From: an uncultured Oxalobacteraceae bacterium
Lineage (GTDB): Bacteria; Pseudomonadota; Gammaproteobacteria; Burkholderiales; Burkholderiaceae
NCBI GenBank assembly: GCA_946479705.1
Contig: CAMLHI010000159.1
Location: 1-5,557 of the forward strand
Direction of reading: 5' to 3'
Length of the DNA stretch: 5,557 nt
The notes below the pieces were generated by a model. That model ran no database searches and was not told where the DNA came from. It was given only the letters and a program-made list of their open reading frames with translations. Position numbers and translations under genes: made by a program. Below, one piece after another: positions 1 through 5,557 of the stretch. The stretch's first letter is position 1, and the number at the start of each line of letters is the position of its first letter.

Positions 1-65
1 AACAGTGCGATGGCGGCGGCGATGGGGCGGGCGGAGAAGGTGTAGTGTTTGTTCGAGTGAGTCAT
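1..65 (-). CDS. N-terminus of a fourth operon gene, probably exported (truncated)
   Basis: An ATG at 65-63 opens a frame that runs off the left edge after 21 codons: MTHSNKHYTFSARPIAAAIAL. A polar, basic start followed by Arg-Pro and a run of small hydrophobic residues is what the first part of a signal peptide looks like. The start lies 26 nt after the stop of the DUF2149 gene, with a weak AGAAG at 78-74 spaced 8 nt from it, so it most likely belongs to the same operon. The style resembles N-termini of outer-membrane proteins such as TonB-dependent receptors in betaproteobacteria, and such a receptor would fit a B12-controlled uptake operon. Too little is present to name a family; a periplasmic protein is equally possible. 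Confidence 0.6.
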   Translation of the reverse strand, partial: MTHSNKHYTFSARPIAAAIAL

Positions 66-91
66 GGAAGGTTCTTCTGGTTGTAGCGGGT

Positions 92-412
92 TTAATTTTT
101 CTTGGCTGGCTCGATCAGTACGAGTTGGCCGGTATGGGGATCGCGGAAGACCTCGCCGACGCGGTCGTAGCCGCTGCCGTCCTGGGTCACGCCTTCCGCG
201 GGGCGTTCGATCTGCCGCCCCTTCTCCACCGGCTTGGGCGCCTTCGTGGCGCCTTGCGTGCTGGCGATGGCTGCGATCAGGCCGCAGGCGAACACCAGCA
301 TCACGTCGACCAGGTTGACCAGGCTGGCGCGTGGATCTTCGTCGCCGTCGTCGAAGCGGGCGTCGAGCCGGGAATACAGGCGCAGGCGCTGGCGCGCGGG
401 CTGGCCGCTCAT
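92..412 (-). CDS. DUF2149 protein, ExbD/TolR-like single-helix partner
   Basis: 106 aa. A basic, charged N-terminus (1-30) is followed by one membrane helix (about 31-51, LVNLVDVMLVFACGLIAAI) and a periplasmic tail ending in the DUF2149 signature GSGYDRVGEVFRDPHTGQL (79-97). The NLVDVMLV stretch closely resembles the start of the ExbD/TolR helix (FIDVMLVLL in ExbD), and places Asp36 where those proteins have the Asp that carries protons. ExbD and TolR have a larger periplasmic domain, so this is a minimal version. The start overlaps the stop of the ExbB-like gene (ATGA). From the family, DUF2149 genes commonly sit beside ExbB-like and CobN-like genes. I infer that the two small proteins form a proton-driven stator-like unit and that the periplasmic tail contacts the CobN-like protein or a later gene product. 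No biochemical role is proven by the sequence. Confidence 0.9.
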   Translation of the reverse strand: MSGQPARQRLRLYSRLDARFDDGDEDPRASLVNLVDVMLVFACGLIAAIASTQGATKAPKPVEKGRQIERPAEGVTQDGSGYDRVGEVFRDPHTGQLVLIEPAKKN

Positions 413-852
413 GCCGCCCGCTCCATGGCTTCCAGCGTTTCCTCGTACCAGCGGCGACGCAGTTTGCCGATCACCAGGCCGCCGATACCGGCAACCAGGC
501 CCAGTACCGTGGCATCGAACGCGACCGTCACCGCGCTTGCGAGCTGGGCGGGATCACCCTGTCCCAGCGCGGCCAAGCCGGGCCCGAGCGGAATGATGGT
601 GGCCATCAGGCCCAGCATCGGCGGGATGCGCGCCAGCAGGTCGGCGCGTTCCAGGCGGTGGCGGGCGATGGCCTGCACCTGCGCCACGTTGCCGCCAGCT
701 CCCAGCTTGGCCAGGCCGCCAAAGCGCTCGCCGGCAGCGATGCCCGCTTCCACCACTGCGATGGCGCAGCCGATCAGCAGGGCGGCCAGGGCCGGCGCGA
801 GCAGCCAGCGGACCGCGTCGTGCAGCCAGGCGAAAGACAAGATTTCGATCAT
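409..852 (-). CDS. MotA/TolQ/ExbB-family proton channel protein (short)
   Basis: 147 aa, an inner-membrane protein of the family whose members (ExbB, TolQ, MotA) form the proton path of motors that turn proton motive force into mechanical work. Three hydrophobic stretches are visible: about 15-37, 74-96 (IPPMLGLMATIIPLGPGLAAL) and 104-128 (LASAVTVAFDATVLGLVAGI). The second and third match the paired TolQ/ExbB helices, with Thr at 85 and 115 where ExbB has its conserved polar Thr residues. The Glu found in helix 3 of E. coli ExbB is not at the matching place, but an Asp (113) lies nearby. The protein is much shorter than ExbB or TolQ (about 230-240 aa), mostly because the cytoplasmic loop between helices 1 and 2 is small. 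Its ATG overlaps the stop of the CobN-like gene (ATGA), and its stop overlaps the next start, so all three are probably made together. The likely partner is the DUF2149 protein, acting on the anchored CobN-like protein. The family call is firm; the role is inference. Confidence 0.9.
   Translation of the reverse strand: MIEILSFAWLHDAVRWLLAPALAALLIGCAIAVVEAGIAAGERFGGLAKLGAGGNVAQVQAIARHRLERADLLARIPPMLGLMATIIPLGPGLAALGQGDPAQLASAVTVAFDATVLGLVAGIGGLVIGKLRRRWYEETLEAMERAA
421..424 (-). promoter_or_regulatory. Ribosome binding site of the DUF2149 gene
   Basis: GGAG on the minus strand lies 8 nt before the ATG at 412-410, within the end of the ExbB-like gene. It supports that start and coupled translation. 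Confidence 0.65.
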
Positions 853-3800
853 GTGGAACTCCTTACAGGTTGAGATAGGTGACGGCCGCGCCACAGGCCA
901 AGCGTAAACAGGGCGAGGACGGTGGCCAGCGCGCCGAGCAGCTTGGCCACGCGCACCGCGGCGGCCTCCGTCGGCGCGGGCTTCTGGTGCAATTCATAAA
1001 CACGGGGCGGCGGCGGGGTGGTCGCCGCAGCGTTTTGCGCCGCGGCTTGTTCGACAGGTTTGGCCGGCTTCGCAGTCTTGGCACGATCCGCCTGGCCAGG
1101 GGCGCCTGCCTTGGCCGAAGCCGGAGCGGCAGCCGCGGCGGGCAGCATCTCGCCGCGCGCCTTGGCCAGCGCCACCCCGAGCGCGCTCGCCTCGGCGCCG
1201 TCCAGCTGTGGCGCCAGCCAATCCCACATCGGATGGTTGGGCGCGGCGTGGCCGCTGCCTGGCAAACCATTTTTTGCCACCAGCTGCGCCAGTTCTCCGC
1301 CCATCTGCTTGATGGTGGCGGGATCGGTCTTCCAGTAGCCCTTTTCGGCAGCCACCATGAAGATGGCCAGCATGTGCGCCTTGACGTGTGCGTTGTGCTG
1401 ATGGCCAAGGAATTGCGGCAGGCCCAGCTTGTGGGCGTCGTCGAAGTACACCGACTTCACCTCGTCCCAGGCCCAGTTCTTCACCAGGTCGGGACGCGTC
1501 ACTTGCCAGCCCCACAGGTTCTCGAGGAATTCCTGCCCCATGGTGCGGGCGCCGGCGTAGCCATGCCCCATCAGCGGCTTGAGCCAAGCCGGGTTGAGGA
1601 AGCGGCCGCGCAGCTCGCCCAGCAGGGCCGCGGCCAGCGGTTCGACGTCGGCGCGGCCGGGCTGCGCATGCTGCAATATCATCGCCTCCGGGACGCGGCC
1701 GGTGCGGCCTTCGATGGCCAGCGACAGGCCCCCCAGATAGTCGAAGGCGTCGTTGTTGTCGAGTAAACCATACAGATTGCTGGCGCGGCCGTGGTAGGTG
1801 CGCTCGATGCCGTCCAGCGCCACGTCGAAGGCGCCGTGGCTGGCCTCGCCGCTGGCGTCCAGCCCGTAGGCGTGGCCCATGCGGTTGCGGTAGGCGCGCC
1901 CGATTTCGTCGCGCTCGCGCCAGGCGCCGGAACGTTCGGTCAGGCGGTTGACGCCGGTGCCGTACGCGCCCGGCGCATCGCCGAACACGCGCTGCGCCGC
2001 GGCGCGGCCGGCATCGCTGGCGGACATGCCGTTGCCGGCCAGCGCGCGCAGGCGCACCAGCCATTCGCGCGCCACGCGGTTCTGCGCCGGACTCTCACTG
2101 CCCCAGGCCGCGCCTGGCACGGGCGCGAGCGCCGCTTGCAGGGCTTCTTTCAAAGCCGGGTCCTGCTCGGCCAGTGTCGTGGCCGATGCAGCCAGCGCCA
2201 AGCGTCCGGCGCGGTCGATCAGGCGGATCAGGTTCGGATACAGGTCGCGGAACAGGCCCGACGTTGTCACCAGCGCATCGCGCCGCACCGCGCCAGGCTT
2301 GAGGCGCACGTCGGTGACGATCCCGCGCGCATTCCATACCGGCTCGGCGCCCATCATGGCCAGCGCGAACGCCACCATCACGCCCTCGTCGCGCACGGCG
2401 TCCGACGCCCACAGAATGATGCCCTCGCTGCCCTTGGCCGAAGCGTCGCGCGCATCGGCCTTGGCGGCCATGCGCTCGCCCAGCTGGTAACCCAGGCGGG
2501 TCGGCAGAATATCGCCGTCGATCGCATGGAAATTGCGCCCGGTAGGTAGTGCTTCGGGCGAGCGCAGCGGGTCGTTCCCCTTGCCCGGCTCGATATACTG
2601 GCCATCCAGGCCAGCGAGCAGGGCGAGCATTTCGCGGCGCGGCGAATCGGCCAGCTTGGCGGCAATGTCCGGGCCGTCGATGCCGCCCTTTTTCATCGAA
2701 TCGAGCATCAAGTCGATCGATTCCTGTTTCCACGGCCGGCCGAAAATGTGCAGGCCATGCGGCATGAATTTTTCTTGCAGCTTGGTCAGGTAATGGCCCA
2801 CCTCGTGCGCCAGCAGATCGTCGTCGGCCGCCTCCAAGCCGATGCCGCGCACGGCCAGCACGTCGGCCATGGACGCTTCCAGCTCCGCCTTCAGATTCAA
2901 TGCGTTGACACGCTCGCGCATCAGCGCCGCGGCCTGCGATTTGAGCGACTCGGAGCTGGCGGCCTCGAAACTCTCGACGACCTGGCGCAGGGCCAGCAGT
3001 TCGTCGTACAGCGGTGTGGTCGCCAGCGGCGGCGTCAGGTGGTCGACGATGACGGCCAGGCCGCGCCGCTTGGCCTGCGTGCCTTCGCCCACGCCGTCGA
3101 CGATGTAGGGATAGATGCCAGGCAGGTCGCCCGCGATCAGGCTCGGATAATCGTCGGAGCTCAGCCCTACCGCCTTGCCGGGCAAGAATTCATAGGTGGA
3201 GTGGCGGCCCACGTGCACCAGCGCGTCGGCCTTGAAGCGGTCGCGCACCCAGTGGTAGAAGCCGAGGTACTGGTGCGGCGGCGTGATGCTGGTGTTGGCG
3301 TGCAGCAGTTCTTCGTCCACTTCCCAGCCGCGTGGCGGCTGCGGACCGAGGAACACATTTCCGAACACCAAGCCGGGCACCAACAACTTGCCACTGTCGA
3401 TCATGATCTTGCCTGGCGCGGCCCCCCAGCCTTTCAAGCCTTCGATGCCATAGCCAGCCAGCCGCTTGCTGAGCGGTGCCAGCGCTGTGCAGCGGCGCAC
3501 CGCTGGCACCTCCAGGCAGGCGTGGTAGCCCTCGGCCAGCGCGGCCAGGTCGCGGATGGCGGCGTCGCGCCGCGGGTGGTCCGCGCCTTCGACCAGGTGC
3601 TGCAATTCCTTGATGATGACCTCGGCCTGCTTGCGGCCCGGCGCGCGCTCGCCGCTGGCCTCGGCTTCCAGCACGTCGGCATGCAGGCGGCCCAGCAGGC
3701 CGCTGGTCATTTCGCCCTGTACGCGCGGCGGCAGCGTGCGAAACCAGCGCGCATAGTCGGCCACGCTCACGCTGTTCACGGTACTGCTCAGTTCGCGCAA

Positions 3801-5216
3801 GGCGGCGCGGTCTTCCGGCAGGTTGACGCCGTGCGCCATGATCATGTCCAGCAGCGCTTGCGGCGATTCGGGCAGGGTGCCCACCGTGTAGCCCGCGTTC
3901 TTCATCGCATGCAGCATGTCGAACAGCGAGGCCGGCACGTCCAGGTTGTCGGCGCCGATGTTCTGGCGGCCCGGCGGGTGGTTGTAATAGATCAGCGCTA
4001 CGCGCTTGTCCCGATTGGCCTTGGCGCGCAATGCCAGCCAGCGGCTGACGCGCGCGGACAGCCTGTCGGCCTCCGCAGGCAGCACCAGCGGAGGCCGGTG
4101 CTCGATGCCGGTTTGCTTGTCGCGCTGCGCCTGGCCTTGCGCCGCCACCACGATGGGCTGGCCTATGCCTTGCAGCTCCGGCAGCGCCACGCGGTATTGC
4201 ACCGAATCTGGCGGCAAGCCGTCCGGCGACAAGCGCCATTGCACGGCGGTGCGGTCGGACAGGCGGATCGCCTTAAAGACTGGCACATTGAGCCGCTTGA
4301 GCGCCTCCGTGACCGCTTCGCGCCCCTCGGCGGCGCCCACCACAAAGTCCTGCAGCACCACCAGTGCCGCCGGCTGGGCCGGTGCGATCAGTTCGGGCAA
4401 GCGCTCCAGCGCCTCGCGTGAGGCGCCACCCCAGCGCGTGAGCACCTGCACGCAGGGCTGGCCACGCTGTTCGATACGCTGGCAGATTGCGGCGGGCACG
4501 TCGCTGTCCATATTGGACAGGTCGAGCACCACGACGGCGGGCTGCGCCTTCAGGCCGAGCTGTGCGGCCTTGCCCCATGCGGCCGCGTCGGTCAGCTCGC
4601 GCCGGCCCACGCGCAGGCGCAGCGTCGGTTCCGGCAGCGGGCTGGCCAGCGCCACGGCCGGATTGAGCAGATGCGCAAACAGCGCAGCGGTGTTGTCAGG
4701 GCCGGCGGCCTGCCACGCCTGGCGCGCGGCCAGCCACGCGCTTGCGGCGGGATCGGCTCGCGCGGCTTCCAGTGCTGCAACCGACGGGGCCTCGGCCGAC
4801 AGTTCGCGCAGCCTATCGGGCGAAAAGTCCCGCAGGCCGCCGCGCGCGCTTCGACTCATCAGGCTGAGGCTGGCTTCCCCGTTGAAGGCCAGCACGACCG
4901 TCTGCGCCCTGGCGTAGCGCGGCAAGGTTTCCTTCAGGCGGCGCGCCGGATCGCCGAACAGGGACACCGCCAGCACACTGTCGGCCTGTCTGAGCCAGAG
5001 ACCGGCCTCGCGGTCGCTGGCGGCCAACCACTGCGCCGGCGTGCGCAGCACAATGCGGTCCTGCGGATGGCTGGCCAGGTGACGGTGGGCCGCCTCGATG
5101 GCCACCGGGGCGGCCCGCTCGGTCACGATCGCGAACATACTGGCGGCCTGAGCGCCCGCGCAGGCGAAGGCACACAGCAGAGCTGCGAGAATCCGCACAA
5201 ATGTAGAAGTGCTCAA
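849..5216 (-). CDS. cobN: CobN/BchH-family chelatase-like protein, exported and C-terminally membrane-anchored
   Basis: About 1455 aa, the large-subunit family of cobaltochelatase (CobN) and magnesium chelatase (ChlH/BchH), which binds the tetrapyrrole ring during metal insertion. Family hallmarks (numbered from the TTG at 5216) are PPGRQNIGADNLDVPASL at 414-431, HVGRHSTYEFLPGK at 668-681 (canonical CobN has HGNLEWLPGK), GEGTQAKRRG and IVDHLTPPL within 710-731, PHGLHIFGRP near 819-828, and the C-terminal block NPAWLKPLMGHGYAGAR at about 1208-1224. Unlike cytoplasmic CobN it opens with a signal peptide (RILAALLCAFACAGAQA, cleavage near AQA-A at 24/25). It ends with an Ala/Lys/Pro-rich linker (about 1358-1404, with PPPP at 1401-1404), one membrane helix (about 1424-1443) and a short basic tail. 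This predicts a periplasmic body tethered to the inner membrane. The start is uncertain: TTG 5216, GTG 5240 and GTG 5198 all suit a signal peptide and none has a good ribosome binding site. The symbol is a family label; this is probably a paralogue of biosynthetic CobN, and its substrate (cobalt-corrinoid, haem or other) is unknown. Confidence 0.9.
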   Translation of the reverse strand: MSTSTFVRILAALLCAFACAGAQAASMFAIVTERAAPVAIEAAHRHLASHPQDRIVLRTPAQWLAASDREAGLWLRQADSVLAVSLFGDPARRLKETLPRYARAQTVVLAFNGEASLSLMSRSARGGLRDFSPDRLRELSAEAPSVAALEAARADPAASAWLAARQAWQAAGPDNTAALFAHLLNPAVALASPLPEPTLRLRVGRRELTDAAAWGKAAQLGLKAQPAVVVLDLSNMDSDVPAAICQRIEQRGQPCVQVLTRWGGASREALERLPELIAPAQPAALVVLQDFVVGAAEGREAVTEALKRLNVPVFKAIRLSDRTAVQWRLSPDGLPPDSVQYRVALPELQGIGQPIVVAAQGQAQRDKQTGIEHRPPLVLPAEADRLSARVSRWLALRAKANRDKRVALIYYNHPPGRQNIGADNLDVPASLFDMLHAMKNAGYTVGTLPESPQALLDMIMAHGVNLPEDRAALRELSSTVNSVSVADYARWFRTLPPRVQGEMTSGLLGRLHADVLEAEASGERAPGRKQAEVIIKELQHLVEGADHPRRDAAIRDLAALAEGYHACLEVPAVRRCTALAPLSKRLAGYGIEGLKGWGAAPGKIMIDSGKLLVPGLVFGNVFLGPQPPRGWEVDEELLHANTSITPPHQYLGFYHWVRDRFKADALVHVGRHSTYEFLPGKAVGLSSDDYPSLIAGDLPGIYPYIVDGVGEGTQAKRRGLAVIVDHLTPPLATTPLYDELLALRQVVESFEAASSESLKSQAAALMRERVNALNLKAELEASMADVLAVRGIGLEAADDDLLAHEVGHYLTKLQEKFMPHGLHIFGRPWKQESIDLMLDSMKKGGIDGPDIAAKLADSPRREMLALLAGLDGQYIEPGKGNDPLRSPEALPTGRNFHAIDGDILPTRLGYQLGERMAAKADARDASAKGSEGIILWASDAVRDEGVMVAFALAMMGAEPVWNARGIVTDVRLKPGAVRRDALVTTSGLFRDLYPNLIRLIDRAGRLALAASATTLAEQDPALKEALQAALAPVPGAAWGSESPAQNRVAREWLVRLRALAGNGMSASDAGRAAAQRVFGDAPGAYGTGVNRLTERSGAWRERDEIGRAYRNRMGHAYGLDASGEASHGAFDVALDGIERTYHGRASNLYGLLDNNDAFDYLGGLSLAIEGRTGRVPEAMILQHAQPGRADVEPLAAALLGELRGRFLNPAWLKPLMGHGYAGARTMGQEFLENLWGWQVTRPDLVKNWAWDEVKSVYFDDAHKLGLPQFLGHQHNAHVKAHMLAIFMVAAEKGYWKTDPATIKQMGGELAQLVAKNGLPGSGHAAPNHPMWDWLAPQLDGAEASALGVALAKARGEMLPAAAAAPASAKAGAPGQADRAKTAKPAKPVEQAAAQNAAATTPPPPRVYELHQKPAPTEAAAVRVAKLLGALATVLALFTLGLWRGRHLSQPVRSST
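858..863 (-). promoter_or_regulatory. Ribosome binding site of the ExbB-like gene
   Basis: AGGAGT on the minus strand lies 5 nt before the ATG at 852-850, inside the last codons of the CobN-like gene. It fixes this ATG as the start rather than the in-frame ATG 14 codons upstream at 894. Confidence 0.8.
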
Positions 5217-5436
5217 TTTGAATTTAATCCGTAACTGCACGCAGAGCGCGCGTGAACTCAGGCAGCCGCCTTCCTTCCATTGAGGCGAAGCGCACATTTG
5301 GTGAAGCATAGACTGCATATGCGACGTGCACACGCGCAGATAGGCCACCGCGGCATACGATTGCGTTACCAGCAAAGGAAGAAACATCGAACAACCAACA
5401 GGCAAAACCGCACCCCGGGTTTTGCACAAGCAATCG
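5217..5436 (-). other. Leader between riboswitch and CobN-like gene
   Basis: About 200 nt separate the aptamer from the likely start of the CobN-like gene. The reading frame of that gene stays open back to a TTG at 5429, but the peptide encoded upstream of about 5240 is Cys/His-rich, looks nothing like an exported chelatase, and starts inside the hairpin, so I treat it as untranslated leader. It holds a strong Shine-Dalgarno-like run, GGAAGGAAGG, at 5278-5269, but no ATG, GTG or TTG in the main frame lies at a usable distance after it. A tiny ORF of 18 codons (5280-5224) overlaps this run. No promoter is evident; the operon promoter should lie upstream of the riboswitch, outside the window. 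Confidence 0.5.
5402..5425 (-). promoter_or_regulatory. Leader hairpin after the riboswitch (possible expression platform)
   Basis: A perfect 8-bp inverted repeat, GCAAAACC and GGTTTTGC with an 8-nt loop, begins about 12 nt after the last conserved riboswitch bases. It is enclosed by a second perfect 8-bp pair, ACGATTGC at 5437-5430 and GCAATCGT at 5364-5357 (minus-strand reading). What follows the inner hairpin is T-rich but broken (CCTGTTGGTTGTT), so it is not a textbook intrinsic terminator. Its place suggests part of the switch that couples ligand binding to expression, but this is inference from position and pairing only. Confidence 0.45.
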
Positions 5437-5557
5437 TGACTGGCCGGTCTTCTGGCTCGCCGTCATCCTTCTTTGGTCCTGCCTTCCCGTGCAGAGCACA
5501 GTGGCGTTCGATCAAAGTCGTCAGGCATACAGCAGCGGGGGCTGCGCCGGACTGGCG
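5437..5557 (-). ncRNA. Cobalamin (B12) riboswitch, 5' part cut off by window edge
   Basis: Read on the minus strand, this stretch carries the conserved core of the adenosylcobalamin/cobalamin riboswitch in the right order. A CCCCGC-TGCTGTA segment (about 5539-5527) corresponds to the usual CCCCGCAACTGTA. The B12-box heptamer GCCACTG follows at 5505-5499, then GGGAAGGC at 5488-5481, GGATGAC, and the 3' signature GAGCCAGAAGACCGGCC at 5458-5442. The 5' strand of the closing P1 helix and the first conserved block lie beyond the window, so the true 5' end is not seen. Such elements usually repress downstream genes when cobalamin is plentiful, by terminating transcription or hiding the ribosome binding site. 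It lies upstream of, and on the same strand as, the CobN-like operon, so that operon is very probably expressed when B12 is scarce. The 3' boundary is approximate. Confidence 0.93.

Follow-up and report, generated by a model that had tools for sequence, protein, structure and literature searches.

Rodionov et al. (2003; cited in PMC6460266) separated exported members of the CobN family from the rest under the name BtuS. The Bacteroides fragilis proteins BtuS1 and BtuS2 represent a third type, distinct from CobN and ChlH, with predicted export and a predicted membrane anchor (PMC6460266). We analyzed a 5,557-nt stretch of DNA (the window) from an uncultured Oxalobacteraceae bacterium (contig CAMLHI010000159.1). 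It encodes a putative protein of this type, which belongs to the CobN family and, by hydropathy and alignment, is exported and membrane-anchored, together with a cobalamin (B12) riboswitch, an ExbB-like proton-channel protein and a DUF2149 protein. Unlike the window protein, the B. fragilis proteins have been studied for heme iron, and the double mutant still made free protoporphyrin (PMC6460266). Neither motor coupling nor the proteobacterial clade of the window protein, here called GRHST after its active-site signature, was found in the accessible sections of that account. We propose, at a probability of roughly 0.5, that the window carries a B12-starvation-induced, proton-motor-coupled periplasmic corrinoid-processing module of the BtuS type.

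A similar layout is known from the hmu operon (hmuYRSTUV), which encodes a TonB-dependent receptor, an exported CobN-like protein that has membrane segments at both its N- and its C-terminus (HmuS; PMC13227078), an ExbB-like protein (HmuU) and a DUF2149 protein (HmuV); an earlier, sequence-only reading of the window had rightly drawn this comparison. In contrast to the window, the hmu operon is under iron control, and HmuS has the heme ligand HGR and a second active-site His and falls in a sister group. The hmu operon also includes HmuY and HmuT; visual inspection of the genes listed for nine loci of the window clade showed neither, although no profile search for them was made there and the window is cut. 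His538 of HmuS is needed for activity (PMC12583661), HmuU and HmuV have been assigned to the powering of the receptor (PMC12583661; PMC10100974), and a cobalamin riboswitch before hmu-like operons in Bacteroides (B. fragilis) has already been noted (PMC10100974).

Pseudomonas aeruginosa PA1922-PA1925 likewise combines a TonB-dependent receptor with a CobN-like protein, a proton-channel protein and a DUF2149 protein, but is under Zur (zinc) control (PMC9431628; PMC4542158) and lies outside our tree. On plasmid pSZ77 of Geobacter (Trichlorobacter) lovleyi, a cobN cluster without CobS/CobT stands between receptor genes, and a role in carrying siderophores, B12 or precursors of corrinoids has been suggested for it (PMC3403914). 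This cluster shares ExbB/DUF2149 and B12 riboswitches with the window, but belongs to a branch with the signature GTHG and has a DUF2162 transporter and its own ExbB/ExbD/TonB. In the T. lovleyi plasmid sequence, two tandem cobalamin riboswitches (L002:5128-5594) precede a set with the order receptor-DUF2162-ExbB-DUF2149-CobN that falls in the HmuS-side branch, so B12 control occurs in both branches. The large subunits of the chelatases CobNST and BchHID are homologous to the window protein and share its active-site His (and, in CobN, its Asp), but these chelatases are cytoplasmic, have no C-terminal anchor (0 of 20 control genes) and are driven by AAA+ ATPases (PMC7689651).

Given the hmu operons, the Zur-controlled PA1922-PA1925 and the BtuS class already in print, the layout is not new in kind. 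What is new is a distinct GRHST clade with a B12 riboswitch in 40/40 genomes, the lack of CobH/CbiC in 32/40 of them, and the co-occurrence of anchor and motor (90 loci with both, 37 with neither and 3 discordant). In the open-access literature, outside which most subscription papers lie, we found no account of a link between the C-terminal helix and the motor, or of a proteobacterial GRHST clade.

Riboswitch Control and Corrinoid Metabolism of the Hosts

One scan of GTDB contigs with alignment gave 101 loci, the best 80 of which were retained, and whole-genome searches covered the genomes of 40 of these 80, hand-picked to span taxa and including some draft or metagenome assemblies. In all 40 related genomes, cobN is preceded by a cobalamin riboswitch on the same strand, which lies within 1.2 kb of the first matched CobN residue in 20 and at 2.6-8.4 kb, at the apparent operon head, in the other 20. 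The B12 control that had been read from the window is thus a clade-wide trait, and such control of the GRHST clade is new here. Riboswitches of this class usually derepress their genes at low B12. The set is found again as a block in relatives and so is not a product of chance; Massilia, Pseudoduganella and Duganella are the nearest named relatives.

CobH/CbiC, a marker of corrin-ring synthesis, is found in 8 of the 40 genomes, and the 32 without it, where absence from a draft is not proof, indicate that most of these hosts must import corrin; the bacteria that would switch this module on at low B12 seem mostly unable to build the vitamin. Four of the eight CobH/CbiC genomes were examined, and all have CbiD over the cut-off and a sirohydrochlorin-chelatase-like (CbiX-like) gene, below the cut-off, beside CobH; these are predicted to use the early-cobalt route, in which CobN is not needed. 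CobS exceeds its cut-off in 0/40 genomes, with G011 and G029 just below (549 and 529 vs. 558.55 bits) and each with a CobT-like gene alongside, and ChlD exceeds its cut-off in 0/40, only G018 (which carries a BchH-type gene) surpassing 200 bits among the matches listed. This follow-up of the lack of a CobS/CobT ATPase, noted earlier for the window, covered the genomes of relatives. Since ring synthesis, CobS and ChlD are mostly absent and the four examined genomes appear to use the early-cobalt route, the exported CobN in most tested hosts is probably not for de novo synthesis. The database label "cobaltochelatase CobN" in this clade would then mostly mark B12 scavengers rather than makers, and CobN alone is a misleading marker of B12 synthesis, as CobH occurs in only 8 of 40 genomes of the clade. 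A pair of CobS and CobT-like genes was located at L155:8272-10973 and at L156:381-3058, in two genomes whose sole CobN-family match is the exported one.

Corrinoid genes lie on the same strand within 9 kb of cobN in 34 of the 67 loci with full flanks (CobO 31, CobB 30, BluB 22, BtuD 20, BtuC 19, CobQ 13, and others), and a PepSY gene lies near 13 of the 67. This reference-based count misses receptor types outside the references, and its figure of 32/80 loci with "no receptor" is an overcount that we did not use. The gene order in Methylobacillus is btuB-(189-aa membrane protein)-cobO-cobB-cobN-exbB-DUF2149. In Dechloromonas hortensis it is btuB-btuC-btuD-btuF-cobO-[CbiZ/amidase fusion with a signal-peptide-like start]-cobN-exbB-DUF2149-cobB, with btuB below the B12-receptor cut-off. 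CobB is over its cut-off in 39/40 genomes and CbiZ is present in 5/40. Two side observations concern this operon company. In Zoogloea (L025:2-3183 and L026:3-3179), a second CobN-ExbB-DUF2149 set lies ~6-7 kb upstream of the window-type set. At L120:3647-13478, a GTHG (HmuS-side) CobN with ExbB-DUF2149 stands inside a BtuF-BtuC-BtuD-CobO-nitroreductase (BluB-like)-CobD operon, in which BtuF, BtuC and BtuD were named by eye and no riboswitch was found in 13.5 kb.

The Exported CobN-Like Protein and Its Active Site

The window CobN scores 813.9 bits against PF02514 (as the longer ORF 5429-849) and falls below every listed NCBIfam equivalog cut-off for CobN and BchH (588.6 vs. 1619 and 505.6 vs. 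822.05 bits). A signal-peptide-like start and a C-terminal hydrophobic helix are present in all ten aligned proteins, the window's included, which supports the exported, membrane-anchored CobN predicted by the sequence-only reading; the topology is based on hydropathy and alignment, with no dedicated predictor, and the TTG start at 5216 was picked by eye, with the aligned homologues as a guide. An ordinary cytoplasmic CobN of aerobic B12 synthesis would agree with its label in databases (CobN), with the CobB-CobN-CobO order in some operons and with the CobS/CobT pair in 2/40 genomes. The signal-peptide-like start with the anchor, the scores just given and the absence of CobH from 32/40 genomes make this reading extremely improbable, and a classical cobaltochelatase was rejected because of the export signal, the family scores and the absence of ring synthesis.

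A tree of 77 hand-picked sequences places the motor-bearing proteins in a single clade (support 1.0), separate from cytoplasmic CobN and BchH. This clade divides into the GRHST clade of the window (34 tips, support 1.0) and a sister group that contains HmuS (25 tips). The active-site His signature reads GRHST in the window, GTHG in HmuS and most of its kin, KHGN in CobN and THGALEF in BchH. HmuS His1209 aligns with Asp1156 of the window, the same residue as in CobN, and the heme-ligand motif HGR (His254) aligns with EGR, by alignment to the HmuS structure 9d26 in a region where the multiple alignment is gapped. With His672 kept, Asp1156 as in CobN and EGR in place of HGR, the predicted catalytic place looks conserved and closer to that of cobaltochelatase than to that of HmuS. 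The best solved-structure match is HmuS (403 bits), with ChlH close at 389 bits, as might be expected if the protein were orthologous to HmuS and took iron out of heme. The two ligand changes (HGR to EGR, His1209 to Asp1156), the separate clade with support of 1.0 and the B12 riboswitch in place of iron control render such a function very unlikely, and HmuS orthology was rejected on ligand residues and tree.

Two further loci were also encountered. In a motor-linked CobN-like protein at L119:5826-9869, alignment did not find the active-site His motif, and at L122:3203-8002 the gene right after a CobN-like gene codes for a CbiK-like cobaltochelatase (below the cut-off).

Co-occurrence of the CobN Anchor With the Adjacent Motor

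An anchor was scored as a 19-residue stretch with a mean hydropathy of at least 1.1 within the last 75 CobN residues, a threshold set after the values had been seen (lowest among loci with both features 1.19, highest among those with neither 0.93), and a motor as ExbB and DUF2149 next door to cobN. Among the 80 loci, 61 have anchor and motor, 12 (all Marinobacter) have neither, 2 have a motor without an anchor, and 5 were dropped as cut or short (L044, L048, L056, L072 and L084, the last with a run of N); at L006 the ExbB ORF overlaps cobN, and the locus, for which the script reported no motor, was counted by eye as having both. Loci from a phylum survey gave 18 with both, 22 with neither and none discordant, one of the 18 repeating a locus of the first set (L125 = L038, counted once). 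These 22 include the 20 cytoplasmic control genes (L135-L154), hand-picked from genomes without a Pfam DUF2149 match, for which a motor was looked for only in the ~0.8-1 kb after each gene. Ten other loci gave 7 with both, 3 with neither and 1 with an anchor without a motor, and five further plasmid-borne relatives, found via their DUF2149 gene and including two HmuS, all have both. In total, 90 distinct loci have both features, 37 have neither and 3 are discordant. Two of the discordant loci have a motor: L032 shows no clear anchor, and in L042 the reading frame is broken near the C-terminus, with a hydrophobic stretch in another frame.

Since the C-terminal helix of CobN occurs where ExbB and DUF2149 adjoin, this pattern favors a motor that would act on CobN rather than on the receptor. 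Inside the GRHST clade, the CobN of Marinobacter stands beside that of Halomonas, which has both anchor and motor, and in a nearly identical operon has neither, a contrast that would be expected if the anchor serves the motor. The alternative, following the published assignment of HmuU/HmuV (PMC12583661; PMC10100974, one of these papers drawing on a TonB whose gene lies elsewhere), is that ExbB/DUF2149 energizes the outer-membrane receptor, with CobN a separate periplasmic enzyme or binding protein. Receptors do lie within 4 kb of 14 of the 18 motor loci in the phylum sample (own profile, either strand). Four of the 18 have none within that distance, though one may lie further off, and motor presence tracks the CobN helix. 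Marinobacter keeps BtuB and CobN with no motor nearby, Trichlorobacter has ExbB/DUF2149 beside a separate ExbB/ExbD/TonB set, and four loci have ExbB/DUF2149 with a Sel1-repeat protein and no CobN. We therefore regard receptor powering as doubtful.

The co-occurrence points to a CobN-like client in the heme and B12 versions alike, against the published receptor assignment. ExbB-type proton motors serve TonB, Tol-Pal and flagella. If correct, our reading would add a new class of client to these, and would link a chelatase fold to the proton motive force outside the cytoplasm.

Several points weigh against the proposed module, in addition to the hydropathy threshold having been set after the fact. 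All 12 Marinobacter loci keep an exported CobN (signal-peptide-like start) in a B12 operon with no ExbB/DUF2149 pair nearby, which argues that the motor is not always needed or is encoded elsewhere in Marinobacter. The Pfam DUF2149 model matched 0/5 Marinobacter genomes, a weak test, as it also missed the Halomonas carrier G029. The contrast in anchor and motor within the clade goes back to one loss event rather than many, and the third discordant locus, Cupriavidus L003_5230, has an anchor without a motor in 49 kb. As to the substrate, 33 of the 67 full-flank loci have no same-strand corrinoid gene of the reference set nearby, and the operon of Massilia Root351 runs into the gene for a siderophore-type receptor, which exceeds the TIGR01783 cut-off and is not BtuB, and that for a PepSY membrane protein. 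CobB is unspecific, being found in 152/299 genomes of an even phylum draw (up to 5 candidates per genome scored), and 2 of the 5 GRHST carriers found in the phylum draw lack it (G126 and G328). No reports of activity or binding were found for the GRHST clade. The motor-CobN coupling put forward in the sequence-only reading is thus favored by the co-occurrence, but the Marinobacter loci speak against it as a strict requirement.

As a separate observation, at Cupriavidus L003:5230-14967 and in L166 an anchored CobN-like protein with a signal-peptide-like start is encoded beside a CobW gene, a cytoplasmic-type CobN and a ChlI-like ATPase.

Proposed Handling of Corrinoids in the Periplasm

The sequences show the gene set, the export signal, the anchor and the riboswitch, as well as the absence of ring synthesis from most tested hosts and the co-occurrence of anchor and motor; from these we infer a corrinoid as substrate and CobN as the component on which the motor acts. 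At low cobalamin, the riboswitch would turn the module on, and a corrinoid would enter the periplasm via the TonB-dependent receptor. The CobN-like protein, held at the inner membrane by its C-terminal helix, would bind the corrinoid in its chelatase cavity. ExbB and DUF2149 would form a small proton-driven motor that contacts this helix and drives conformational cycles, taking the place of the CobS/CobT ATPases of cytoplasmic CobN. The corrinoid, its metal centre or side chains possibly corrected, would then pass to BtuFCD and on to CobO, CobB and CobQ. Derepression at low B12, hosts mostly without ring synthesis, and corrinoid genes as neighbors together point to the handling of an imported corrinoid; the chemistries that remain are metal insertion, metal exchange and plain hand-off.

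Plain hand-off would make the CobN-like protein a carrier or release factor, which binds the imported corrinoid and is forced by the motor to pass it to BtuF with the metal unchanged. The presence of BtuB, BtuC, BtuD and BtuF among the neighbors and the 32/40 hosts without CobH/CbiC would suit such a factor; the conservation of the superfamily His and of Asp at the CobN position would not, and CobB in 39/40 genomes hints at early-intermediate chemistry. We consider this possible, if unlikely. The CobB co-occurrence is itself a hint only, given its background of 152/299 and the occurrence of cbiA/cobB in 46% of precursor salvagers (PMC6461909).

Metal removal, another option raised in the sequence-only reading, is unlikely for a corrinoid: derepression of the operon is expected under B12 scarcity, in hosts mostly without corrin synthesis, and extracting cobalt from B12 at that point would be self-defeating. 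Cobalt removal from B12 was accordingly judged unlikely on regulation and gene content. The protein could instead release cobalt from imported complexes for use by the cell, much as HmuS does with the iron of heme. Cobalt uptake is well known to be controlled by B12, sister branches have links to other metals (nikR next to an Azospirillum operon, hydrogenase maturation genes in Runella, heme in hmu), and the P. aeruginosa set, outside the tree, belongs to the Zur regulon. Hosts without CobH/CbiC (32/40) would hardly need free cobalt to make B12, stripping it from B12 would be senseless under scarcity, and the neighbors found are corrinoid genes, cobalt permeases not having been searched for; release of cobalt thus appears improbable.

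A more specific version of the proposed module is that ExbB/DUF2149 is a proton-driven substitute for the AAA+ ATPase of class I chelatases, powering through the CobN helix the periplasmic insertion of cobalt, or exchange of metal, into scavenged metal-free or wrongly metallated corrins. In Dechloromonas and Azonexus, the CbiZ-amidase fusion would trim the corrin first, and CobB and CobQ would re-amidate it inside. Cobalt insertion into exogenous cobalamin has been speculated upon for Chlorobaculum (cited in PMC8620254). We hold this version to be a long shot; if true, bacteria without corrin synthesis could complete scavenged corrins. The fusion of CbiZ (PF01955) with a carbon-nitrogen hydrolase (PF00795), which has a signal-peptide-like start and stands directly before cobN in Dechloromonas/Azonexus (L085:8313-9938, on which the Pfam search was run, and also L020 and L022), may hydrolyze corrinoid side chains in the periplasm. 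A route via a de-amidated corrin would agree with the fusion and with CobB; against this, the fusion occurs in 3/85 loci and CobB is common anyway.

Features of the Window

The features are collected in Table 1. Family scores and alignment bear out the layout originally described, that is, a riboswitch, an exported and anchored CobN, ExbB, and DUF2149 with its Asp on one strand. The full genes are joined by 4-nt ATGA overlaps (852-849 for cobN/exbB and 412-409 for exbB/DUF2149). What had been called a further exported product is the beginning of a TonB-dependent receptor: RPIAAAIAL is common to the window and the same-place gene of Massilia Root351 (HPIAAAIALL in that place in Root418), and the Root351 gene is a TonB-dependent receptor (PF00593 and PF07715). 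A terminator-like hairpin in the leader (5425-5402) does not exceed chance, the window having 2 such sites where 3.6 are expected; a promoter and terminator scan gave nothing above chance, and a Megablast search against plasmids gave no match.

Table 1. Features of the 5,557-nt window, listed in the direction of transcription.
Feature	Position	Strand	Basis and remarks
Cobalamin riboswitch aptamer	5557-5425	minus	RF00174, 75.9 bits vs. gathering score 31.5, E 5.5e-18; 5' part beyond the window
Leader, aptamer to start codon	5217..5424	minus	
CobN-family ORF, 1455 aa, GRHST clade	849..5216	minus	PF02514
Signal-peptide-like N-terminus of the CobN-like protein	5145..5216	minus	Read from sequence and alignment
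His672, counterpart of HmuS catalytic His538	3201..3203	minus	Alignment to 9d26 and motif table
C-terminal membrane helix of the CobN-like protein	891..950	minus	KLLGALATVLALFTLGLW, conserved in A1
ExbB/TolQ-like proton-channel ORF, 147 aa	409..852	minus	PF01618, 33.2 bits vs. cut-off 22.9
DUF2149 ORF, 106 aa, one membrane helix and short tail	92..412	minus	PF09919, 35.6 bits vs. cut-off 27.1
Asp36 of DUF2149, inside the membrane helix	305..307	minus	Invariant in 24/24 aligned DUF2149 proteins of several subfamilies
TonB-dependent receptor gene, first codons, cut by the window edge	1..65	minus	N-terminus match to the Massilia Root351 neighbor

ExbB-Like and DUF2149 Proteins

The ExbB-like protein belongs to the MotA/TolQ/ExbB family by its PF01618 match, and the motif PxxGLxxT is kept in 14/14 aligned sequences. 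A pattern scan for the DUF2149 Asp across 111 ORFs (some of them repeats) left 12 that missed the pattern, yet these show the Asp. The predicted model of DUF2149 has one long helix (residues 27-53) with a mean pLDDT of only 62.3, too weak for a fold search, and comparison with ExbD by hhalign gave a probability of 28% over 25 columns around the membrane Asp, with only two ExbD sequences compared.

In the phylum draw, the Pfam DUF2149 model matched at least 17 of 398 genomes (the centre genome included), at 19 places. This is a lower bound, because the model misses true carriers: G001, G002, G019, G029, G038 and G040, whose loci carry DUF2149 by our own profile, were all missed, so absence of a Pfam match is weak evidence. 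ExbB adjoins DUF2149 at 19/19 places, and CobN lies within 4 kb at 18 of them. At the 19th place, a Sel1-repeat protein with a signal-peptide-like start is found instead of CobN, and the same set occurs in three more genomes. These four loci (L092:8341-10129, L158:7159-9021, L159:8665-10448 and L160:8669-10341) have no CobN-sized gene, and two of the four adjoin a nickel-dependent hydrogenase gene. As a side observation, the Sel1-repeat protein may be another client of the ExbB/DUF2149 motor. On an Azospirillum brasilense plasmid (L164), a CobN-ExbB-DUF2149 set lies near an ABC importer, a TonB receptor and nikR, and from this company is likely a nickel version.

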